From NCBI GenBank assembly GCA_026002855.1, contig BPGD01000001.1, positions 1,763,972 through 1,827,971 of the forward strand: a DNA stretch of 64,000 nucleotides, written 5' to 3'. The notes under the pieces were generated by a model. It was given only the letters and a program-made list of their open reading frames with translations. It searched no databases and was not told where the DNA came from. The position numbers were made by a program, and so were the translations under genes. Below, in pieces: positions 38,581-53,723 of the stretch (position 1 is its first letter; every line of letters starts with the position of its first letter). Source of the stretch: Bryobacteraceae bacterium (GTDB taxonomy: Bacteria; Acidobacteriota; Terriglobia; Bryobacterales; Bryobacteraceae).

Positions 38581-40227
38581 ATGCAGCCCTGGACACAGAA
38601 CTACAATCCGCTTGGCAACGCCGCGCTTTCCACTCTGGCGGCGGCGATCCCGGTGACGGTGCTGTTCTATCTGCTGGCGGTGCGCCGGACCGCTGCGCAC
38701 CTGGCGGCGCTGTATGCGCTGGCGGCCAGCATGCTGGTGGCGGCGCTCGTGTTCCGCATGCCGGCGCCGATGGTGCTGGCGGCGGCCGCGCACGGCAGCG
38801 TGTATGCGGCGTTGTGGATCGCCTGGGTGGTGGTGGGCGCGGTGTTCGTATACGACCTGACGGTGGAGAGCGGGCACTTCGAGACGATCAAGGGCTCGAT
38901 CGGCGCGATCACCGACGACCGCCGCGTGCAGATGCTGCTCATCGCCTACTGTTTCGGTTCCGTGCTGGAGGGCGCCGGCGGCGGCGGCGCGCCGGTGGCG
39001 GTGACGGCGGCGATGATGATCGGGCTGGGGTTCCGGCCGTTTGAGACGGCGGTGGTGTGCCTGATGGCGAACACGGCGCCGGTGGCGTGGGGCGGCATGG
39101 GGAATCCGGTGCGCGCGCTGAGCGCGGTGACGGGGCTGCCGGAAAGCGACCTGAGCGCCACGATGGGCCGGATTCTGCCGCCCATCGCGGCCATTCTGCC
39201 GTTCTGGCTGGTGCGCTCGATGGTCGGCTGGAGAGAGACCTTGCAGGTGTGGCCCGCGTGTGTGGTGGCGGGTTTCAGCTTCGCCGGGATCCAGTTCTTC
39301 TGGTCGAATTACGTGGATCCCAACCTCGTTGACATCATGAGCGGCATGGGCACGCTGCTCGTTTCGGCCGTCTTCTTCAAGTACTGGAAGCCGGGCACCG
39401 AGTTTCACTTTGCGGAAGAGGCCGGCCGGGCGCGGCCCGCACGCAGGCATTACACGGCGCGCGAGGTGATTCACGCCTGGTCGCCGTTCGCGCTCATCGC
39501 GCTGTTCGTCATCCTGTGGGGGATCCCGTCGGTGAAGGCGGCGATCGGAAAGACCTCCTACAAGGCACCGGTGCCCGGGCTGCATCAGATGGTGATCCGC
39601 ACGGCGCCGGTGGTGGAGAAGGACGTGGTCGAATCGGCGATCTTCAGCTTTGACTGGCTGGCAAGCGTTGGCACGGCGACGGTGCTGGCGGGGTTTGTGG
39701 CTGGTCCGGTGCTGGGACTCTCAGTGGGTGCGACGCTGCGCGTGTTCCGCCGCGCGCTGTACCGGATGCGCTACAGCTTTCTCGCCATCCTTTGCATGAT
39801 CTGCATGGCGTATGTGATCCGCTACTGCGGCATGGACGCGGTGATGGGCCTGGCGATGACGCACACGGGCGCGCTGTATCCGGTTTTCGGCACCTTCATC
39901 GGCTGGCTGGGGGTGGCGCTGAGCGGCACGGATGCGGGGTCGAACGCGCTGTTCGGCAACCTTCAGGTGGTGACGGCCACAAAGCTGGGGCTCGATCCGG
40001 TGCTGATGGCGGCGGCGAATTCCACCGGCGGGGTGATGGGCAAGATGGTGGCGGCGCAGTCGCTGATCATCGCCTGTGTGGCGGCGGGGATCGAAGGAAA
40101 GGAAGGCGACCTCTTCCGTGCCGTCGCCAAGCACGGGCTGGCGCTGGCGCTCGTGATCGGGCTGCTGGTGACGCTGTACGCGTATGTGTTCCCGGATGTG
40201 GTGGCCCACAATCACCGCTTCTGGTAG
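38581..40227 (+). CDS. L-lactate permease family transporter
   Basis: 548 residues with about 13 hydrophobic helices. The pattern 'EGAGGGGAPVAVTAAM', 'NTAPVAWGGMGNPV' and 'GTDAGSNALFGNLQ' is characteristic of LctP/LldP proton symporters for lactate and glycolate. A weak 'GGAAAGG' lies 8 nt before the ATG. The next genes on the same strand encode an exported aldolase-like and an exported dehydratase-like protein, so a short 2-hydroxy acid made outside the cytoplasm could be its substrate (inference). Confidence 0.88.
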   Translation: MQPWTQNYNPLGNAALSTLAAAIPVTVLFYLLAVRRTAAHLAALYALAASMLVAALVFRMPAPMVLAAAAHGSVYAALWIAWVVVGAVFVYDLTVESGHFETIKGSIGAITDDRRVQMLLIAYCFGSVLEGAGGGGAPVAVTAAMMIGLGFRPFETAVVCLMANTAPVAWGGMGNPVRALSAVTGLPESDLSATMGRILPPIAAILPFWLVRSMVGWRETLQVWPACVVAGFSFAGIQFFWSNYVDPNLVDIMSGMGTLLVSAVFFKYWKPGTEFHFAEEAGRARPARRHYTAREVIHAWSPFALIALFVILWGIPSVKAAIGKTSYKAPVPGLHQMVIRTAPVVEKDVVESAIFSFDWLASVGTATVLAGFVAGPVLGLSVGATLRVFRRALYRMRYSFLAILCMICMAYVIRYCGMDAVMGLAMTHTGALYPVFGTFIGWLGVALSGTDAGSNALFGNLQVVTATKLGLDPVLMAAANSTGGVMGKMVAAQSLIIACVAAGIEGKEGDLFRAVAKHGLALALVIGLLVTLYAYVFPDVVAHNHRFW

Positions 40228-40362
40228 CGGCCGGGCCGGATGCAGGCTTCTTCATTTGAAAGCCGCGCCGCGGTTTGAAAGAATACGCGCATCCGGACCC
40301 GCGGGCCGGGTTTGCCCGAGGTTTCGGTCTGGATCCACGCGTTTCCGAGGAGGGTGACTGCG

Positions 40363-41283
40363 ATGAGATGGAAGTGCACCGTTGGCGGGCTGGTGCTGGT
40401 GGCGATGGCGGCGCCGCAGGCGGGCGCGCAGCTTGGCCTGTTCAACAACGAGATGCGAATCGCGCTGACGCGCGAATGGAAGGGCGAGCGGTTTCCGGAC
40501 GGACGTCCGAAGGTGCCCGATGAAGTGCTCGACCGCCTGAAGCTGACCACGGCCGAGGAAGCCTGGGGCACGCTGCGGCGGCTCGGCTATCACAATCAGT
40601 TCGAAGGCAACTGGAAGACGGTGAACGTGAAGGACCCGGCCGGCGACCGTCTGGTGGGACGCGCGGTGACGGCCGTGTTCATGCCGCGGCGGCCGGACGT
40701 CGACAGCTTCGTGATGGACATGGGCAGGAAGGAGAACCGCGTCGGGCGCGGGCAGAACTCCTGGGTGATCGACACGCTGGTCAAGCGCGACGTGATGGTG
40801 GTGGATCTGTTCGGCAAGATCAAGGACGGCACCATCATTGGCGACAACCTGGGCACGTCGATCTGGACCAAGACCGGCACGGGCCTGGTGGTGGACGGTG
40901 CGGTGCGCGACGTGAGCGGACTGATGGAGATCGAGGGGTTCAAGATCTTCTGCCGGGGTTTTGATCCGAGCGCCATTGCCGAGGTCACGCTCATGGGCAT
41001 CAATGTCCCGATCCGCATCGGGCAGGCGACCGTGCTGCCGGGAGACGTGGTGCTGAGCGACCCCGAGGGCGTCGTCTTCATTCCGGCGCACCTGGCCGAG
41101 AAGGTCGCCGATGAGAGCGAACTGACGCGCCTGCGCGACGAGTGGGGCCATCAGATGCTGCGGGAGCAGAAGTATACGCCTGGCCAGATCGACGCACAGT
41201 GGACGCCGCAGATGATCGATGAGTTCAACCGGTGGGCCGAGTCGAAGGGCTCAAAGGTGCGCATGCCGAAGCGCGAAAAGTGA
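40363..41283 (+). CDS. Exported RraA-like (HMG/CHA aldolase fold) protein 2
   Basis: 306 residues from ATG 40363 with GAGGAGGG upstream. Signal peptide about 1-23 (LVAMAAPQAGAQ). The RraA fold has GDNLG (160-164), the catalytic pair in DGAVRDVSG (R182-D183) and 'LPGDVVLSDPEGVVFIP'. Class II pyruvate aldolases of this type use the Arg and a metal-bound Asp to split 4-hydroxy-2-keto acids. It is 16 nt upstream of the Tat-exported dehydratase-like gene, clearly one operon. The C-terminal ~50 residues are an added, charged tail. Confidence 0.8.
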   Translation: MRWKCTVGGLVLVAMAAPQAGAQLGLFNNEMRIALTREWKGERFPDGRPKVPDEVLDRLKLTTAEEAWGTLRRLGYHNQFEGNWKTVNVKDPAGDRLVGRAVTAVFMPRRPDVDSFVMDMGRKENRVGRGQNSWVIDTLVKRDVMVVDLFGKIKDGTIIGDNLGTSIWTKTGTGLVVDGAVRDVSGLMEIEGFKIFCRGFDPSAIAEVTLMGINVPIRIGQATVLPGDVVLSDPEGVVFIPAHLAEKVADESELTRLRDEWGHQMLREQKYTPGQIDAQWTPQMIDEFNRWAESKGSKVRMPKREK

Positions 41284-41298
41284 GCGAGGGAGGAAGCG

Positions 41299-42678
41299 AT
41301 GGAGAAAGCGACGAGGAAGTGGTGGCAGAACCGGCGCCGCGGAGCGAGCCGGCGCGGATTCCTGAAGACGGCCGCGGGCGTCGCCGCAGCCGGCTTCTGG
41401 GCGGAAGAGACGATCCAGGCCTATCAGAACCACGTCAACACGAACTCGAAGCCCTCGGCGCTGCGGATCACCGACCTGAGGTTCGCGCACATCATCGATG
41501 CGCCCATGCGCTGCCCGATCATCCGCATTGACACCAACCAGGGCATCAGCGGCTACGGCGAGGTGCGCGATGGGGCGAGCGTCACCTACGCGCTGATGCT
41601 GAAATCGCGCATTCTCGGCGAAAATCCCTGCAACGTGGACAAGGTTTTTCGCAAGATCAAGCAGTTTGGTTTCCACGCGCGGCAGGCGGGCGGCGTCTGC
41701 GGCATCGAGATGGCGCTTTGGGATCTGGCGGGCAAGGCCTACAACGTGCCCGCGTATCAGCTTCTGGGCGGCAAGTTCCGGGACCGGATCCGGCTGTATG
41801 CGGACACCACCGAATCGCATGATCCCAAGGTCTACGGCGAGCGGCTGAAGAAGCGCCGCGATGAAGGGTTCACGTGGCTGAAGATGGACCTCGGCATCGA
41901 CCTGGTGGAAAAAGTCCCCGGAGCGGTGACCGCGCCCGCGGGCGTCACGCAGCGCACGTCCACCTGGACGAAGCACATGTTCACCGGGATGGAACTGACC
42001 GAGAAGGGCATCGGGCTGATGTGCGATTACGTGGCACAGATCCGCGAAATGGTCGGCTGGGACATCCCGCTGGCCGCAGACCACTTCGGCCACATTGGGG
42101 TGAATTCCTGCATCCGGCTCGGCAAGGCGCTGGAAAAATATAACCTGGCGTGGCTCGAAGACATGATTCCCTGGACGGAGACCGAGCTGTGGAAACAGAT
42201 CACGCTGGCGGTGGACATCCCGACGCTGACGGGCGAAGACATCTATCTGAAAGAGCCGTTCATCGAACTGGCCCGCCAGCACGCCGTGGACATCTTTCAC
42301 CCGGACCTGGCGACGGCGGGCGGGCTGCTGGAGACGAAGAAAATCGGCGACGCGGTGATGGAATACGGCCATGCAATGGCGATGCACTTCGCCGGGACGC
42401 CGATTTCGTTCATGGCCAACGTTCACTGTGCGGCGGCCACGGAGAATTTTCTCGTGCTGGAGCACCACTCGGTGGACGTGCCGTGGTGGTCGAACCTGGT
42501 CACCGGCAACGAGCAGCCGATTTACGAGAAGGGCTTCGCGGTGGTGCCGGACAAGCCGGGGCTGGGCGTGGAGCCCAACCCCGACGAGGTGAAGAAGCAT
42601 CTGGCTCCGGGCACCGGTTACTTCGAGCCGACCGAGAACTGGAACAACGAGCGGAGCTGGGACCGGCTATATAGCTGA
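41299..42678 (+). CDS. Tat-exported enolase-superfamily (MR/MLE) dehydratase-like protein
   Basis: 459 residues. The N-terminus holds a twin-arginine signal, SRRGFLK (17-23) with a hydrophobic stretch after it. The barrel keeps the superfamily residues: K195-x-D197 on strand 2, metal ligands D261, E287 and E313, and H334 (IFHPDLATAGG). It should therefore be a working acid-sugar dehydratase or epimerase; the substrate is unknown. A folded, metal-bound enzyme exported by Tat makes sense. RraA-like 2 is directly upstream (16 nt); DUF1080 converges 6 nt downstream. Confidence 0.85.
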   Translation: MEKATRKWWQNRRRGASRRGFLKTAAGVAAAGFWAEETIQAYQNHVNTNSKPSALRITDLRFAHIIDAPMRCPIIRIDTNQGISGYGEVRDGASVTYALMLKSRILGENPCNVDKVFRKIKQFGFHARQAGGVCGIEMALWDLAGKAYNVPAYQLLGGKFRDRIRLYADTTESHDPKVYGERLKKRRDEGFTWLKMDLGIDLVEKVPGAVTAPAGVTQRTSTWTKHMFTGMELTEKGIGLMCDYVAQIREMVGWDIPLAADHFGHIGVNSCIRLGKALEKYNLAWLEDMIPWTETELWKQITLAVDIPTLTGEDIYLKEPFIELARQHAVDIFHPDLATAGGLLETKKIGDAVMEYGHAMAMHFAGTPISFMANVHCAAATENFLVLEHHSVDVPWWSNLVTGNEQPIYEKGFAVVPDKPGLGVEPNPDEVKKHLAPGTGYFEPTENWNNERSWDRLYS

Positions 42679-42684
42679 CGCCGG

Positions 42685-43323
42685 CTAAAGCGGGCGGATG
42701 CGGAGGTTGCGGAAAGCAATTTCGAAGCCTTCGGCCTCGAGCCCGATGTATCCTTTCCGCAGTGCGACGCCTTTCATGACGCTGGTCACCGCGCCATTGA
42801 CGGAGAGGGTGATGGTGTCGCCCTCGGCGCGGATCTCATAGCGGTTCCACTCGCCCGCCGGTTTGACGCGGTTTTCCGTCATCTGATCGCGAAGGTTGAC
42901 GCGCACGAGCTCGCCATTGACGAAGTTCATGCCAAACAGCCAGCCGCCGGCCAGGCCCGTCTGCGCCTGCGTCCAGAGCTCGCCATAACGGGACAGGCGC
43001 ACGCCGATGCCGCTGTTGTATTTCGTTTCGCCTTCGCGAGGCGTGAAGCGCCATTCGACCTCGAGCACGAAATCGCCAAACGGCTTCTCATACATCAGCC
43101 ACTCATGGCCGCCCTGGCCGGTGCAGAGAATGGTCTTCGAGGCGGCGTCCACTCGCCATTGCGGCGCAGAGTTGACCGGCCCGACCGGAGGGATGGGAAC
43201 GCGTGTCCAGCCAGGGATTTCCCTGCCGAGCGGCGTGTCCGGCGGCGTCAGGTCGATCCAGTCCGACGCGCCGAAGGCGGAAAGCGCGATCCAGCAGAGC
43301 AGAGACAGTCGAAACAGCATCAC
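42685..43323 (-). CDS. Exported DUF1080 (3-keto-disaccharide hydrolase) family protein
   Basis: 212 residues. A signal peptide (1-19, ...IALSAFGA) precedes a LamG-like jelly roll with the usual DUF1080 phrases 'FVLEVEWRF', 'YNSGIGVRL', 'NRYEIRAEGDTITLSVNG' and the C-terminal 'GYIGLEAEG'. Members act on 3-keto-glycosides made by a separate GFO/IDH oxidoreductase; none is seen in this window. Upstream (43324-43524) there is no gene; the MFS gene follows on the same strand further right. Confidence 0.85.
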   Translation of the reverse strand: MMLFRLSLLCWIALSAFGASDWIDLTPPDTPLGREIPGWTRVPIPPVGPVNSAPQWRVDAASKTILCTGQGGHEWLMYEKPFGDFVLEVEWRFTPREGETKYNSGIGVRLSRYGELWTQAQTGLAGGWLFGMNFVNGELVRVNLRDQMTENRVKPAGEWNRYEIRAEGDTITLSVNGAVTSVMKGVALRKGYIGLEAEGFEIAFRNLRIRPL

Positions 43324-43524: not shown

Positions 43525-44853
43525 TCAGTCGATGCCCAGGCGGTGCTGCATTTCTTCCAGTGTGTGCCCCTTCGTTTCGGGGAAGAACAGCAGCACCACG
43601 AAGAACTGCACCGCCATCATGGCGGCGAACAGCACGAACGGCGCCGCGCCGGACTCGGCGGCAATCACCGGGAAGATGCCGCTGATCAGGGCGTTCATCG
43701 CCCAGTGCGTGAAGCTGCCCAGGCTCTGGCCTTTCGCGCGGACCCGCGTGGGGAAGATCTCGCTCAGGTAGACCCAGATGACCGCGCCCTGGGAGAAGGC
43801 GAAAAAGGCGATGAAGGCGACCAGCAGCCACACGAGCAGATGCTGGTGAGCCTGGGTGGAGAAGATCCAGGCGACGCCGGCGAGGCTGGCGGCGCAGCCG
43901 ACGCTGCCCACCAGAAGCATGCTCCTGCGGCCGATTCTGTCAATCACGCTCATCGCGATGATCGTCGACACGAGGTTCGTAAAGCCGACGGCGACGGCCT
44001 GAAGATCGCCTGAGACCTTGTCAAAGCCGGCGCGGGCGAAGATGTCGTTCAGGTAATAGAGAATCGCGTTGATGCCGCTCAACTGGTTGAACATGCCGAT
44101 GGCGATGGCGATCAGCACCAGCTTCAGGTACTTGCGCTGGAACAGCGGCTCATCGGCGTGACCATGTTCAGCATCCAGCGAAGCGACAATTTCGTCGAGC
44201 GCCTTCTGCCAGTCCGGCTCGCCGTTCAGCCGCAGGACCTCGCCCGCTTCGGCCACGCGCTGTTTCTTGGCCAGCCAGCGGGGCGTTTCCGGGATCGTAT
44301 AAAGCATCAGCAGAAAGAGCGCGGCCGGGGCGGCGGCGACGCCCAGCTTCCAGCGCCATTCCGCATCGCCGAAGCCGGCCAGCCCGACCAGGTAATTCGA
44401 GAAGTAGGCCAGCAGAATCCCGAAGACGATGTTGAACTGGAAAAAGCCCACCAGACGGCCGCGCCACCGCGCCGGCGCGATCTCGGCGATGTACATCGGA
44501 CCGAGGACCGACGAGCCGCCGATGGCCAGTCCACAGAGGAAGCGCGAAGCGACAAACGATGCCCAGTTCCACGCCAAAGCGCAGCCGAGCGCGCTCACCA
44601 GGTACAACACCGCGAGCACGCGCAGGCTGGCGCGGCGGCCCCAGCGGTCGCCCGGGACGCCGGCAAACATCGCGCCCAGGATCGTGCCGTAGAGGGCGCT
44701 GGCCACGGTGAGGCCCAGCATCGCGGGCGACAGTGCGAAGAGGCGCTGAAGGGCGCTGGTGGCGCCGGCGATGACGGCGGTATCAAATCCGAACAGGAGC
44801 CCGCCGAGAGCGGCCACCACGGTGGACTTGACGAGCGTGGCGTTGAGTCGCAT
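43525..44853 (-). CDS. Sugar porter family MFS transporter
   Basis: 442 residues, twelve membrane helices. Sugar-porter motifs are all there: GDRWGRR after helix 2, PETPRWL after helix 6 and PETKG after helix 12, so this is a XylE/GLUT-like monosaccharide carrier. The central loop (~210-240) is short and acidic. It lies between DUF1080 and the alpha-fucosidase on the same strand and could import the released sugar (L-fucose or glucose; inference). Confidence 0.9.
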   Translation of the reverse strand: MRLNATLVKSTVVAALGGLLFGFDTAVIAGATSALQRLFALSPAMLGLTVASALYGTILGAMFAGVPGDRWGRRASLRVLAVLYLVSALGCALAWNWASFVASRFLCGLAIGGSSVLGPMYIAEIAPARWRGRLVGFFQFNIVFGILLAYFSNYLVGLAGFGDAEWRWKLGVAAAPAALFLLMLYTIPETPRWLAKKQRVAEAGEVLRLNGEPDWQKALDEIVASLDAEHGHADEPLFQRKYLKLVLIAIAIGMFNQLSGINAILYYLNDIFARAGFDKVSGDLQAVAVGFTNLVSTIIAMSVIDRIGRRSMLLVGSVGCAASLAGVAWIFSTQAHQHLLVWLLVAFIAFFAFSQGAVIWVYLSEIFPTRVRAKGQSLGSFTHWAMNALISGIFPVIAAESGAAPFVLFAAMMAVQFFVVLLFFPETKGHTLEEMQHRLGID

Positions 44854-44958: not shown

Positions 44959-46263
44959 TCAGGGCTCGCGGCGCGGACGCTGAGTGCGCACGAAGTCCAT
45001 GTCCTGCCGCGGCACGCCGTCGCATTCGATGGCGATCGTCGTGAGGGGCCGGTCCGGCGGCGTTTCCGGCAGACCGGTGAAGCGGACGCGGAAGTCGTCC
45101 TGTTCAAACTTCACCGGCGTGCCGGTGGCGAGCAGGCGCGCGGAGATGACCCTGTTGCGCAGTCCGCCCAGCGTCACCGTGCTGCCCGGCCAGTAGTGGA
45201 CGTGCGCATAGAGCGTGTTGCCGATGCGCGTGAAGTTCATGTAGTTGGAGCGCGACACCTGGCAGGGCTCCGCCGTGTAGACGGAGGCGCCGTTGCGGGC
45301 CAGCCACTGGCCCATTTCGGTGAGAATGCGGACGCTTTCGGGCGGCACGCTGCCGTCGGGCATGGGGCCGATGTTGAGCAGGTAGTTGCCGCCGAGACGG
45401 GCGCAGGTGATGAGATTGCGCAGGCACTGGCGCGGCGATTTCCAGTTATCGTCGGCGCGGTGATAGCCCCAACTGTCGTTCATCGTCATGCAGGACTCCC
45501 AGTCGCGCGCCTTCGAGGCCTCGATGCGCTGCTCGGGCGTGTCGAAGTCCTCCGGCACGCGGCTGCGGTTGTTGATGATGATGTCCGGCTGGAGCTGGCG
45601 GACCATCCGGTTCATCTTCAGGCTCTCCCATCCTTCGGCGTCGAGCGGCCAGGCGACGTCATACCACAGGATGTCCACCTTGCCGTAATTGGTCATCAGT
45701 TCACGGACATGCGTGTGGATGTAGTCGACGAAGCGGCGCCGGGCGGCGTCGTCTTCGCGGCAGCGGGCGCCGTCGGGGTGATGCCAGTCCATCAGCGAGT
45801 AGTAGAAGCCGACGCGCAGGCCTTCAGCGCGGGCGGCGTCCACAAACTCCTTCACCAGGTCCCGGCGGGCGGCCTGTTTGGGCGCGCAGTACGAAGTAGT
45901 GGACGTGTTGAACAGACAGAACCCCTCATGGTGCTTGGTGGTCATCACCATGTACTTCATCCCGGCCTTTTTGGCCAGCGCGGCCCATTCGCGCGCAGGC
46001 CAGGGCTTCGGGCGGAACTGCCGGGCGAGCTGTTCGTATTCGGCCACGGGGATTCCCTCGTTTTCCATCACCCACTCGTGGCGTCCGAGCACGCTGTAGA
46101 GGCCCCAGTGGATGAACATGCCGAAACGCGCCTGCCGCCACCACTTCATGCGGCGCTCGCGGTCTTCCTCGGTGCTGGTCTGAAGGGCGGCCGCGGCGGG
46201 AACGGCGGAGACGACGCGGAGGTATTCGCGACGGGAGATTCCTCTGGGCAGCATGGCGATCAT
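44959..46263 (-). CDS. Exported alpha-L-fucosidase (GH29)
   Basis: 434 residues from ATG 46263 (ATG 46254 is equally possible; the upstream part of the open frame has no coding character). A Tat-like start SRREYLRVVSAV precedes the GH29 barrel: 'WWRQARFGMFIHWGLYS', 'MTTKHHEGFCLF', and nucleophile D202 in DILWYD. The block GGNYLLNIGPMPDG closes the barrel, followed by a beta-sandwich. It should release alpha-L-fucose or a related sugar outside the cytoplasm. It is divergent from the VOC/GH-A fusion gene. Confidence 0.9.
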   Translation of the reverse strand: MIAMLPRGISRREYLRVVSAVPAAAALQTSTEEDRERRMKWWRQARFGMFIHWGLYSVLGRHEWVMENEGIPVAEYEQLARQFRPKPWPAREWAALAKKAGMKYMVMTTKHHEGFCLFNTSTTSYCAPKQAARRDLVKEFVDAARAEGLRVGFYYSLMDWHHPDGARCREDDAARRRFVDYIHTHVRELMTNYGKVDILWYDVAWPLDAEGWESLKMNRMVRQLQPDIIINNRSRVPEDFDTPEQRIEASKARDWESCMTMNDSWGYHRADDNWKSPRQCLRNLITCARLGGNYLLNIGPMPDGSVPPESVRILTEMGQWLARNGASVYTAEPCQVSRSNYMNFTRIGNTLYAHVHYWPGSTVTLGGLRNRVISARLLATGTPVKFEQDDFRVRFTGLPETPPDRPLTTIAIECDGVPRQDMDFVRTQRPRREP

Positions 46264-46316
46264 GCTATCACCCAGGGCCGGCGCGTTTTGCGGGTCCACA
46301 CGCGAGGATCCGCTGG

Positions 46317-46322
46317 TACAAT
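46317..46322 (+). promoter_or_regulatory. -10-like element of the VOC/GH-A fusion gene
   Basis: TACAAT, 26 nt before the ATG, followed by a good ribosome-binding site (AAGGAGGG). No -35 match. Confidence 0.35.
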
Positions 46323-46348
46323 GTCTGCGGTTCCAGCAAGGAGGGCCC

Positions 46349-49162
46349 ATGCAGCGGCTGATGTTCGCCCTGCTGCTGACGGTTTCAGCAGCGGCCCAGA
46401 TGCCAGAGCCTTACCGGCGCGTGGCGCGGCTCATCTGGGTCGTGCCGGATGCCGAAGGCACGGCGGAAGCCTGGCGCAGAATTGGAATCCCCGTGGACGA
46501 GCCGGCAGCGGCGGAGTTCCGGCCGACGGGCGGCGCGCCGCACGGCGGGCTGGCCGCCAGTGGTTACTTTGCCAATCTCCGCGCCGACTGGGTGCAGCCG
46601 GCGGCGGGAGCAGGCCCGCTGGCGCGTTTCCTCCGCCAGCGCGGCGCTGGGGTCTTCGCGCTCGCCTATGAGATGCCGGACCGGGAAACGTGGCGACGGG
46701 AGATTGAACGGTTCCAAAGCGCCGGCGTCGCGGTGATCGAACAGGGGGAACTGACCCTTGGCGGAGAGACCACCGCCTACGCGTTCCTGGACACGGCCCG
46801 CGAAGGCAAGTTCGTCCTGGCGTTGATGACTCGCGGGAGGAACTCCGGCGGCCCGGCGGGCTCGATGCGCGTGTCGCAGTTGGCCTTTGTCGTGCGCGAC
46901 CCGGAGCCGGTGTCGGCGTTCTGGGCGCGGCTCGGCTTTCCGCCATTCACTTTCACGCATCCGGATCTCGGTGACAAGACGTACCGGCGGCGGCCGGCGG
47001 ATTTCGACATGCGGCTGGGATGGCAGCGGCACGCGCAGATGCCGTTCGAATGGATCCAGCCGCTGCGCGGGCCGAACGTCTACGAGGACCATCTGGCAAA
47101 GCACGGCGAGGGGTTCCACCACCTGGCGTTTGACGTGCCTGACATGGATGCGGCGATCCGCCGGTGGGAGTCGCTCGGCTATCCGGTGACGATGTCCGGC
47201 TCGTGGGGCGAGACAGGGAAGGCAGGCAGCGGGCGGTTTGCTTACGTGGATGCGCACGCCATCGGGGGCGCCGACATCGAGCTGCTGTGGAACTATCGCG
47301 CGCCGGCGCCACCGCCCGCCGAGGGGCCTTTCGTCCTGAAATTCCCCGCAGGCGAGCGGCTTCCAGAGCACCGGATCGCCGTGCCGCGCCTGCGCTGGCC
47401 TTCGGACTGGCGCCCCTGGCGCGGCCTCACGTTCGAGTTTGTCGCGTCCACGCTCGAACCTTTCGCGTTCGGCTTTTCCGACGGGCAGACAGTCAAGAGC
47501 CTGATCATGGAACCGCTGCCGGGATTGCGGATCCGCGCCTTCATTCCCTTTGAGGCTTTCTGGCAGACACGCACCATGACGCCGTTGTTGCCGCTCGGCT
47601 ACAAGGCGTGGCCGGAGCGGCTGTTCACCTTCGAGCGCGTGGAAGAGATCGTCATCCGCATGAAATACCCGGCCGCTGATTCCACGCTGACGCTCTCAAG
47701 GCTCGCGCTCTCCGCCGAAGACGTGCCAGACGACATTCTGGACCGGAAGCCCGTCATTGACGCCTTCGGGCAGTGGATCGGCGAGGATTGGCCGGGCAAG
47801 GCGCACTCACTGGAGGAGCTCGGGAAACTGTGGGCGGAAGACCGCCTGCCGCGCGCCGAATATCCCGACTACTGCCCGCTGGGAGGCTACCGCCGACAGA
47901 CCGCCAACCCGGCGAACGCGACGGGCCGGGCTGGCTTCTTCCGGGTGGCGCAGATCGAAGGGCGCTGGTTCCTCCTGGACCCGCACGGTCACCCGTTCTT
48001 TTCAACGGGCATGGATCTGGTGGGATGGAAGCAGGGCTCGTTTGCGACGCGCGTGACCGGGCGCGAGTTTCTCTTCGAGAAGCTGCCTCCGGCGGGGCCG
48101 GCCTGGCTCACGCCCGGCAGGGACGTCTCCTTCCATGTGGCCAACATCATGCGGCGATATGGGGAGAACTGGCAGGAAGAGTGGAAGAAATCCGTCCTTG
48201 CGCGGCTGAAAAACTGGGGATTTAATACGATCGGCAACTGGAGCGACCCCGACATCGCCACTACCGCCGGCATGGCGTATGTCCTCCCGTTGAGCGGGTG
48301 GACGACGAAAAAGACGTTTCCTTTCCCGTGGGACTTTCCGGACGTGTTCAGCGAAGAATTCGAGCGCAATGTCGATGAGGCGGCGAGAAAGCAGTGCGCT
48401 CCGCTGCGGGACGACCCGAATCTCATCGGCTGGTTCATTGGCAACGAGCCGCACTGGGCGCGCGAGTTCGGCTCACTGAAGCCCTGGGCGGAGATGTTAT
48501 TGGAAGATCCCGAGCCGTCTGCGACGAAGGCCGAGCTGCTGCGCCGGCTGAAAGAGAATCCGGAAAAAGCGGAGGAGATCCGGCGCGGATGGACCTACGT
48601 CTGCGGCCGGAAATATTTCGAGACGATCATTGCGGCCATCCGGCGGCATGACCCCAACCATTTGATTCTTGGCATCCGTTTTGCTGGAAATCCGGCGGAT
48701 GAATGGGTGGAAATGTCGTCGCTTTTTGACGTCTTTTCGATTAATATTTATACCGAGGATTTTCGCCCGGACCCGGCGCGGCTGGACCGCTATGCCAGAC
48801 TCTCCGGCCGGCCGGTGCTCATTGGCGAGTTCACCGCCTGCGCACCGGGCCGCGGCCTCCAGGGCCTGTTTTACTGGACGCACAAGGTGAAAGACCAGAC
48901 GCAGCGGGGCATCGCCTACCGCTACTACGTGGAGAACGCGGCGGCGCATCCGGCGCTGATCGGGACTCACTGGTTCCAGCTCGTTGACGACCTGCCGACA
49001 GGCCGCCCGTCGGATCTGGAGAGGCTGAATTACGGCTTTCTGAACGTGCTCGACCTGCCTTATCGGCCGCTGGTCGAGTACGCGCGCGAGGCGCACCGGC
49101 GTATCTACGCGGTCAAATTCGGCAAGGCCGCTCCCTACGACCGCAGGCCGCTGGTCTTCTGA
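46349..49162 (+). CDS. Exported fusion of two VOC modules and a clan GH-A (agarase-like) glycoside hydrolase
   Basis: 937 residues from ATG 46349. Signal peptide 1-17 (LLLTVSAAAQ). Residues ~20-150 and ~165-320 are two VOC (glyoxalase-fold) modules. The second keeps H258 (GFHHLAFDVPD) and E311 (DIELLW) but has no His at the first metal position (QLAFVV). Residues ~325-465 look like a carbohydrate-binding beta sandwich. Residues ~500-937 form a GH-A barrel with acid/base E700 in GNEPHW and nucleophile E827 in VLIGEFT. The end, 'GTHWFQLVDDLPTGR' and 'LNYGFLNVLDLPY', resembles GH50/GH86 beta-agarases. Substrate unknown. I saw no frameshift; the modules are continuous. Confidence 0.8.
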   Translation: MQRLMFALLLTVSAAAQMPEPYRRVARLIWVVPDAEGTAEAWRRIGIPVDEPAAAEFRPTGGAPHGGLAASGYFANLRADWVQPAAGAGPLARFLRQRGAGVFALAYEMPDRETWRREIERFQSAGVAVIEQGELTLGGETTAYAFLDTAREGKFVLALMTRGRNSGGPAGSMRVSQLAFVVRDPEPVSAFWARLGFPPFTFTHPDLGDKTYRRRPADFDMRLGWQRHAQMPFEWIQPLRGPNVYEDHLAKHGEGFHHLAFDVPDMDAAIRRWESLGYPVTMSGSWGETGKAGSGRFAYVDAHAIGGADIELLWNYRAPAPPPAEGPFVLKFPAGERLPEHRIAVPRLRWPSDWRPWRGLTFEFVASTLEPFAFGFSDGQTVKSLIMEPLPGLRIRAFIPFEAFWQTRTMTPLLPLGYKAWPERLFTFERVEEIVIRMKYPAADSTLTLSRLALSAEDVPDDILDRKPVIDAFGQWIGEDWPGKAHSLEELGKLWAEDRLPRAEYPDYCPLGGYRRQTANPANATGRAGFFRVAQIEGRWFLLDPHGHPFFSTGMDLVGWKQGSFATRVTGREFLFEKLPPAGPAWLTPGRDVSFHVANIMRRYGENWQEEWKKSVLARLKNWGFNTIGNWSDPDIATTAGMAYVLPLSGWTTKKTFPFPWDFPDVFSEEFERNVDEAARKQCAPLRDDPNLIGWFIGNEPHWAREFGSLKPWAEMLLEDPEPSATKAELLRRLKENPEKAEEIRRGWTYVCGRKYFETIIAAIRRHDPNHLILGIRFAGNPADEWVEMSSLFDVFSINIYTEDFRPDPARLDRYARLSGRPVLIGEFTACAPGRGLQGLFYWTHKVKDQTQRGIAYRYYVENAAAHPALIGTHWFQLVDDLPTGRPSDLERLNYGFLNVLDLPYRPLVEYAREAHRRIYAVKFGKAAPYDRRPLVF

Positions 49163-52355: not shown

Positions 52356-53723
52356 TCAGCGGCGCAGCCGTGCGGGCTTGAGCGTCCACGCCTGGAGCCG
52401 GGCCATCTCGAGCAGACTCTCCGGCGCGAAGCCCCTGGGGTGGATGACCCAGTTGTAGAGGCGCGCGGCGTCTGTCCCGATGCGCTTCTCGAAATCCGTG
52501 CGGCCGCGGCGCACCGGGACGGGGCCGGAGCCGGCGACGCCGGCGAGCGTTGCGGCGAAGTCTTCGAGTGACAGACGCTGGCTGCCGAGCCAAACCTCGT
52601 CCGGAAGACGGCCATGAGTGCGAACGAAGTCCGCCGCATCGCGCTTCGCTCTTTCCAAGGCCGGACGGGGGATGGAAGGCTCCGTCCAGGTGGTCGTGGA
52701 ACGGCGCAGCGGCCCCTCGACGTGCTGAGGCTCAAGGCCGAGCAGGCTGAGCAGCAGATCGGCGGCGGAGAAGCCCTCATGGGCATCCAGGCTTTCGGCA
52801 AGCCGCCGTGCCAGGCCTGCCGGCGGCGCAGCGTCGCGCGGCTCGAACAGCGCCGGCGCCTCGCGCGCGGTTACGATGCGCAGGCCGGGCGTGCGGCGCA
52901 CGTGATCGACCCATTCGAAGAAGATCCGGTAGGCCTGCTCGCGCGCCTCCGGCGTTCGCAGCCGCGGCCTTTTCCACTCACTGCGCTCCGGGCTGGCGCC
53001 GTGGGAAAAGTTGACACCGTCCCAGAATTCCGTGGTCACCCACTCGGTGGGGTGATAGTAGGTTTGAATCACGCCGCCGCCCCGGCGGCGGACGGATTCG
53101 GCGGCGGCATCGAACCGCCGCTTTGCCTCTTCGAGGCGCGCCGGGTTGTTCAGGTCGACGCGTACGGTGTGCCGGCCGAGGTTGAAGATGTAGAGCAGGC
53201 CGCCGTACCAGAAAGGCTGTTCGTCGAAGCCCACCTGGCCGGCGTCGTCCATGTAGACGCGTACGCCCCAGGCGCGCAACGCGAGGTTCACCTGCGGGGC
53301 CCAGGAGTTGCCCGGCTGGCCGTAACAGCTCGGCGGGACTCCGAAGAGCTTTTCGAGCAGCAGGAAGCCGCCGCGTTCGCGGCGCGAGAATTCGGCCGCG
53401 CCATCGAGCAGCCCCATGCCGGCAAGATATTCGGCCGGGGCGGGATGGACGCTGTGGAATTCCGTGTGGTAGCCGATGTCATGAGCGGCCAGCGCGCGCA
53501 GCACGTCGGTGCGGCCGCGTTGCACCAGCACGCGGGCCTTTTCGCCGACGATCTTGAATGTGGCGCGCACGCCGCGCTCGCGCAGGCCTTCGGCGAGGCG
53601 CAGGGCGGCGTCGTCGGAGGAGGGCTCGATGTAGTCTTCGGTGTCGAACCACAGGAGCCAGTAGACCGGCGGCTGCGCGGCGGCAACGCCGCACAGCAGC
53701 AGGGAGAGCAAAAGCGGCCGCAT
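52356..53723 (-). CDS. Exported NodB-fold polysaccharide deacetylase-like protein
   Basis: 455 residues. Signal peptide 1-16 (LLLCGVAAAQ). 'WLLWFDTEDY' supplies the first acidic pair and 'GYHTEFHSVHP' the histidines of a NodB-like site; 'SCYGQPGNSW' stands where the usual RxPxG would be. The C-terminal ~120 residues are helical. Activity is likely on a sugar N-acetyl group but the deviation in motif 3 makes this uncertain. It lies 3 nt downstream of the P1 peptidase gene. Confidence 0.7.
   Translation of the reverse strand: MRPLLLSLLLCGVAAAQPPVYWLLWFDTEDYIEPSSDDAALRLAEGLRERGVRATFKIVGEKARVLVQRGRTDVLRALAAHDIGYHTEFHSVHPAPAEYLAGMGLLDGAAEFSRRERGGFLLLEKLFGVPPSCYGQPGNSWAPQVNLALRAWGVRVYMDDAGQVGFDEQPFWYGGLLYIFNLGRHTVRVDLNNPARLEEAKRRFDAAAESVRRRGGGVIQTYYHPTEWVTTEFWDGVNFSHGASPERSEWKRPRLRTPEAREQAYRIFFEWVDHVRRTPGLRIVTAREAPALFEPRDAAPPAGLARRLAESLDAHEGFSAADLLLSLLGLEPQHVEGPLRRSTTTWTEPSIPRPALERAKRDAADFVRTHGRLPDEVWLGSQRLSLEDFAATLAGVAGSGPVPVRRGRTDFEKRIGTDAARLYNWVIHPRGFAPESLLEMARLQAWTLKPARLRR

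Follow-up and report, generated by a model that had tools for sequence, protein, structure and literature searches.

A Conserved Fusion of Two VOC Modules to a GH50 Glycoside Hydrolase in Bryobacteraceae and Its Possible Sugar-Converting Role

A 937-residue protein, predicted to be exported, joins two VOC (glyoxalase-fold) modules to a GH50 hydrolase in a Bryobacteraceae bacterium, and this joint is genuine and conserved. The gene lies in a window of 64,000 nucleotides (the whole stretch that was analyzed; assembly GCA_026002855.1, contig BPGD01000001.1, positions 1,763,972–1,827,971). The second VOC module (VOC2) keeps an intact putative metal site and is strongly constrained, and the double-VOC unit probably modifies a sugar enzymatically instead of serving as a mere binding tag. 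The features discussed are collected in Table 1.

Table 1. Features of the fusion gene and of its surroundings (window coordinates).
Feature	Position	Strand	Basis
L-lactate permease family (LctP)	38581..40227	+	Domain match; homologue adjoins stand-alone double VOC in G282
RraA-like aldolase family protein	40312..41283	+	Domain match
Enolase-superfamily (MR_MLE) sugar-acid dehydratase-like	41299..42678	+	Domain match
DUF1080/3-keto-disaccharide hydrolase-like, exported	42685..43323	-	PF06439, E 2e-24
MFS sugar porter	43525..44853	-	Domain match
Divergent alpha-L-fucosidase (GH29), likely true start near 46263	44959..46350	-	PF01120, E 2e-90
VOC-VOC-GH50 fusion gene, 937 aa, exported (predicted)	46349..49162	+	Single open frame; same architecture in G468, G483, G513, G525, G580, G881
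N-terminal signal peptide (MQRLMFALLLTVSAAA/Q)	46349..46396	+	Sequence inspection; comparable N-termini in fused and stand-alone relatives
VOC1, residues 22-165, without metal ligands (R27, D80, A104, L157)	46412..46843	+	Glyoxalase_3; model; ligand columns
VOC2, residues 172-318, intact putative metal site	46862..47302	+	Glyoxalase_4, E 3e-17; 3gm5 by sequence and fold; low dN/dS
Q177, putative metal ligand 1 (Gln or His family-wide)	46877..46879	+	Alignment columns; Gln also in 3gm5
E234, putative metal ligand 2	47048..47050	+	Alignment columns; 3gm5 match
H258, putative metal ligand 3 (GEGFHHLAF)	47120..47122	+	Alignment columns; 3gm5 match
E311, putative metal ligand 4 (DIELLWN)	47279..47281	+	Alignment columns; 3gm5 match
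Pro/Ala-rich linker (RAPAPPPA)	47303..47338	+	Conserved in genus
Beta-sandwich, residues ~331-465	47339..47743	+	Partial alignment to 4bq2; position relative to barrel
GH50 (GH-A) barrel, residues ~466-925	47744..49123	+	Match to solved GH50 beta-agarases
E700, acid/base (Aga50D E534)	48446..48448	+	Alignment; residue roles from PMC11079163
E827, nucleophile (Aga50D E695)	48827..48829	+	Alignment; residue roles from PMC11079163

Architecture and Authenticity of the Fusion

The gene is a single open frame without internal stop, and its product carries VOC1, VOC2, a beta-sandwich and a GH-A barrel in this order. An exported single-chain fusion had been proposed in a first-pass annotation made from the letters of this DNA; the single chain is confirmed by the open frame and by the same architecture in other genomes, and export stands as a prediction, based on a Sec-type signal peptide ending at about AAAQ that was judged by eye. 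The intact fusion was found in seven species genomes from three Bryobacteraceae genera, including all five members of the window's own genus that were examined (the window, L022/G525, L058/G513, L023/G468 and L024/G483), with further copies in L025/G580 and L083/G881. Because the same uninterrupted frame is present in other species and in genomes from other projects, the fusion is not an assembly error; an assembly or frameshift artefact is ruled out by its repetition in the seven genomes, and the case that the annotation had named against itself, two genes merged by a local misassembly, fails on the same ground. An eighth fused copy (G860, L097 6247-7170) has a decayed VOC2 without the HGEGFHH segment, and lies in a draft genome on a contig that ends just after it. 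Genes at related loci were called by a simple script instead of a trained gene finder.

The VOC Modules and the Putative Metal Site of VOC2

Two VOC modules at about residues 20-320, as first annotated, were recovered by Pfam, structure prediction and fold comparison alike. Pfam matched Glyoxalase_3 at 29-195 (E 1e-7) and Glyoxalase_4 at 177-299 (E 3e-17), both exceeding the curated cut-offs, and the predicted model of residues 1-328 (pLDDT 76, pTM 0.76) contained the repeated beta-alpha-beta-beta-beta units of two VOC modules; the AlphaFold model of the full-length chain, built from a six-row alignment, had a pLDDT of 48. With Foldseek against the PDB, hydroxymandelate synthase and HPPD were the top matches over both modules (TM ~0.6), and VOC2 alone matched 3gm5 (target TM 0.81, rmsd 1.9 A, 30% identity). 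The same structure matched VOC2 in a profile search (E 5e-15), with Gln/Glu/His/Glu at the same four positions. The viral fold library gave nothing useful.

Alignment of 28 double-VOC proteins shows Gln or His (mostly Gln) at position 177 of VOC2, Glu at 234, His at 258 and Glu at 311 in all rows complete there, so that the strand-end ligands of the VOC superfamily (His/Gln, Glu/Gln, His, Glu) are present in VOC2 and absent from VOC1, whose ligand set is lost in Bryobacteraceae. In another family of the class, several members retain Q-E-H-E in VOC1 as well as in VOC2. Strand-end His/His/Glu ligands are known from human methylmalonyl-CoA epimerase (PMC6525113). The annotation had placed H258 and E311 correctly and had noted that the first His is missing, from which it concluded that VOC2 may bind rather than convert. 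The His is indeed absent (Gln, Q177), but the conclusion drawn from it fails because Gln is the family norm at this position; a lost metal site in VOC2 is rejected for the same reason, and the retention of all four positions together with strong purifying selection speaks against a binding-only module. As judged from the aligned residues, the putative site of VOC2 is intact and VOC1 is the ligand-free module. Pairwise dN/dS against the window, taken as ratios of pairwise dN and dS with dS near saturation in the more distant pairs, was ~0.02-0.1 for VOC2, ~0.18-0.46 for VOC1 and 0.06-0.12 for the barrel. VOC2 is thus strongly constrained, to a degree comparable with the catalytic barrel. Elsewhere in the same genome (G000 C1:1052793-1053326, L004), an exported single VOC protein with Gln/Glu/His/Glu-type motifs is ~31% identical to VOC2.

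The GH50 Half

The C-terminal half had no Pfam GH match above cut-off, and phmmer against the PDB retrieved the GH50 beta-agarases 4bq2 (Aga50D, E 5e-50, three aligned stretches over the barrel), 6xj9, 5z6p (AgWH50C) and 5t3b. The active-site residues of Aga50D, N533, E534, E695, F742, R752 and E757 (PMC11079163), correspond to N699, E700, E827, F876, R886 and E891, and none of the six varies among the six fused proteins that were compared (the window and five others). By these matches the barrel belongs to GH50, and the beta-sandwich takes the position that the CBM-like domain has at the N-terminus of Aga50D. The annotated GH-A barrel with E700 and E827 is therefore upheld, both residues aligning to the catalytic pair of Aga50D, and its label of agarase-like can be sharpened to family GH50. 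The family also includes the beta-1,3-glucanases Fsa16295Glu and PaBglu50A and the beta-galactosidase VadG925 (PMC11079163), therefore agarase activity does not follow from membership. A second GH50 gene of the genome, outside the window (G000 C1:4189601-4191091, L002/L003), encodes ~690 aa with a Tat-like start and ~35% identity, without a VOC part.

Gene Neighbourhood of the Fusion

The divergent neighbour, annotated as a fucosidase, proved to be of the GH29 alpha-L-fucosidase type. It is also divergent to the fusion in G525, G513 and G468 (82-90% identical), and was not found beside the fusion in G483. On its far side in the window, the permease, the RraA-like aldolase and the MR_MLE dehydratase are co-directional (38581-42678) and resemble a sugar-acid pathway. 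A conserved operon was rejected, as only the fucosidase stays beside the fusion in sister species. The genome (4.4 Mb) yields 19 matches to the DUF1080 domain, of which a single one is near the fusion, and given this number the adjacency of DUF1080 is too weak a proof of a 3-keto pathway. A single-copy gene for an exported polysaccharide-deacetylase-like protein (window 52356-53723) lies within 3.5 kb of the VOC gene; such a gene is also found at most 3.5 kb from the VOC gene in the distant G156 (L074 12046-13560), and is located elsewhere in G525 and G513.

Stand-Alone Double VOCs and the History of the Fusion

The VOC unit was found in 30 of the 237 family members searched, mostly as free proteins. 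Outside the fusions the halves are separate genes, for an exported double-VOC protein of ~320-400 aa and for a GH50 of 600-700 aa; free GH50 relatives (59-65%) are present in other families, and most Bryobacteraceae with the VOC gene have more distant GH50 genes elsewhere in the genome. The two were never adjacent separate genes among the loci examined. The plasmid search returned GH50-only and VOC-only matches, and no record covered 80% of the query. Since the one scan of a genome collection relied on short exact peptide patterns and the other genome searches were made within the phylum, the architecture could exist elsewhere.

In six genomes, which belong to four genera, a fucose-isomerase-like gene lies in the same 20 kb as the free double VOC; it is divergent at a distance of ~120 bp in G528 and directly upstream in G548, G705 and G861. 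Its product contains the C-terminal domain of L-fucose isomerase and has weak similarity to sulfoquinovose isomerase, with no match in the PDB by sequence. It forms a conserved family linked to free double-VOC genes (L065 7746-9155, L066 10351-11760, L099 8410-9816, L061 7676-9079, L062 17837-19243 and L063 743-2140). In G554 and G736, a GH42 gene is found in the same region and a LacI regulator adjoins the free VOC gene. Other loci have sodium-solute (sugar) symporters, sulfatases, galactonate-dehydratase-like genes, DUF1080 and LctP. Quite apart from the fusion, these sugar genes link the double-VOC family to sugar use.

The VOC tree places the free proteins of G548, G705 and G861 within the fused ones. 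A single clade of fused VOC halves is rejected (p-AU 0.011), and a single clade of fused GH50 halves is compatible with the data (p-AU 0.54); a close GH50 half is absent from G548 and G705. One fusion followed by a later split would be the simplest account of the trees, two fusions being also possible. The VOC tree implies that in one branch the VOC half outlived the GH50 half with its putative metal site intact, which would give it a job of its own.

Discussion

The combined evidence suggests an exported enzyme of two activities, in which GH50 would release a sugar and VOC2 would carry out a metal-dependent proton transfer on it, a reading to which we give about an even chance. The GH50 barrel would cleave a beta-linked glycan, probably galactose- or glucose-containing, by a retaining mechanism with E700 as acid/base and E827 as nucleophile, which is strongly indicated by family and residues, and the GH29 enzyme of the divergent gene may trim side groups. 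VOC2 would hold a divalent metal through Q177, E234, H258 and E311, with VOC1 as a structural partner that has lost its site, and this metal may chelate vicinal oxygens of the released sugar or of an oxidised sugar. Proton transfer beside a carbonyl could then result in epimerisation, aldose-ketose isomerisation or beta-elimination of a 3-keto sugar, a step suggested by the ligand set, the constraint and the context. The fusion would keep the second activity where the sugar is released, and uptake and catabolism may use the nearby sugar porter, sugar-acid dehydratase, aldolase and lactate genes. By analogy, the metal chemistry of methylmalonyl-CoA epimerase and of 3-keto-glycoside eliminases, which stabilise an enolate with a metal in a different fold (PMC10628242), makes such VOC2 chemistry plausible. 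Several observations count against the two-activity enzyme. The fused VOC2 of G860 lacks HGEGFHH, so that this genome can do without its chemistry; the isomerase-like neighbours appear to be cytoplasmic proteins, whereas the VOC protein is exported; and the dehydratase, aldolase and permease block is not kept beside the fusion in sister species. The decayed VOC2 of G860 and the existence of free VOC proteins show that the coupling of the two activities is not obligatory.

The same decayed copy, in which the fused VOC part is nevertheless kept, would suit a VOC pair acting as a non-catalytic, metal-assisted carbohydrate-binding module that targets GH50 to its substrate, as would the absence of ligands from VOC1 and the location of the pair between signal peptide and catalytic domain, a position occupied by a CBM in the GH50 agarases that have been characterised (PMC11079163). 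That position is already taken by the beta-sandwich, however, and the free double VOCs stand without an attached hydrolase beside regulators, symporters and isomerase-like genes; an enzyme fits such exported pairs in sugar-catabolic loci better than a CBM-like accessory. Four fully conserved chelating residues and a low dN/dS point in the same direction, to chemistry, and we regard a binding module as rather unlikely. Similarly unlikely, in our judgement, is a neutral accident that joined two functionally unrelated halves, both kept as each is useful. The branch of G548, G705 and G861, where the VOC half is free again and the close GH50 half is gone (as checked in G548 and G705), is what such an accident might leave behind, and it would agree with the distant GH50 genes at other sites in most Bryobacteraceae with the VOC gene and with the lack of neighbouring separate VOC and GH50 genes at the loci examined. 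Against it, the fusion has persisted in three genera and in all five genus members examined with its linker conserved, and both halves come from glycan or sugar contexts.

A different chemistry, that of an HPPD or extradiol-type dioxygenase on a cell-wall aromatic such as ferulate or a lignin-linked phenol, is suggested by the two-module fold, which is nearest to hydroxymandelate synthase and HPPD (TM 0.6). These enzymes likewise have two VOC modules per chain, one active and one ligand-free. The best local match is 3gm5 and not HPPD, the invariant Glu at position 2 and the Gln prevailing at position 1 do not make a two-His-one-carboxylate set, and the neighbours are sugar genes, not aromatic ones. 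The VOC2 ligand set thus disfavours a dioxygenase, which we consider highly improbable, and assignment to HPPD or hydroxymandelate synthase was rejected (13.1 bits against the TIGR01263 cut-off of 277; Q-E-H-E in place of the two-His-one-Glu triad), the fusion also being without aromatic-pathway context.

For the preferred sugar-modifying enzyme, the closest solved relative of VOC2 is 3gm5 from Thermoanaerobacter tengcongensis, deposited as a putative methylmalonyl-CoA epimerase. It is a single module pair, whereas the exported 937-residue protein is doubled and joined to a GH, and is found in a sugar rather than a CoA context; methylmalonyl-CoA epimerase itself was rejected (26.8 bits against the TIGR03081 cut-off of 114.95). 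VOC2 also has a weak sequence match (E 2e-4) to 6bu2, deposited as "Glyoxalase", which we take to be a CetB-type 2-epi-5-epi-valiolone epimerase. CetB-type epimerases are VOC enzymes that act on a sugar-like cyclitol; 6bu2 is a single module pair of intracellular secondary metabolism. The usual partners of hydrolases in multi-catalytic glycan enzymes are esterases, lyases or binding modules, and in the open literature searched no pairing of a hydrolase with a VOC metalloenzyme was found. The GH50 beta-agarases (Aga50D 4BQ2-5, AgWH50C 5Z6P, 6XJ9 and the Bacteroides GH50 5T3B) share the CBM-like sandwich, the GH-A barrel and the six active-site residues; the 937-residue protein differs from them in its distant sequence and its extra N-terminal VOC-VOC unit. 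The 3-keto-glycoside beta-eliminases AtOGE and CGE share the metal/enolate sugar chemistry as a chemical analogy only, being TIM-barrel Mn enzymes and not of the VOC fold (PMC10628242), and DUF1080 and TIM-barrel isomerase-like genes are neighbours at some VOC loci.

To our knowledge, no biochemistry has been described for the double-VOC group, and the free exported proteins matched no curated reaction in this analysis. The fusion offers a handle on this family, which is recurrent in sugar loci of Acidobacteria; candidate VOC substrates can be narrowed down from the GH50 product and from the isomerase-like neighbours, and as GH50 is broader than agarases, the natural substrate in this lineage may not be of agar type. 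We propose, tentatively and with more doubt than confidence, that exported double VOCs, fused or free, form a new secreted family of metal-dependent sugar isomerases, epimerases or eliminases. If this is true, the GH50 fusion would combine a glycoside hydrolase with its own sugar-converting VOC enzyme in one chain.
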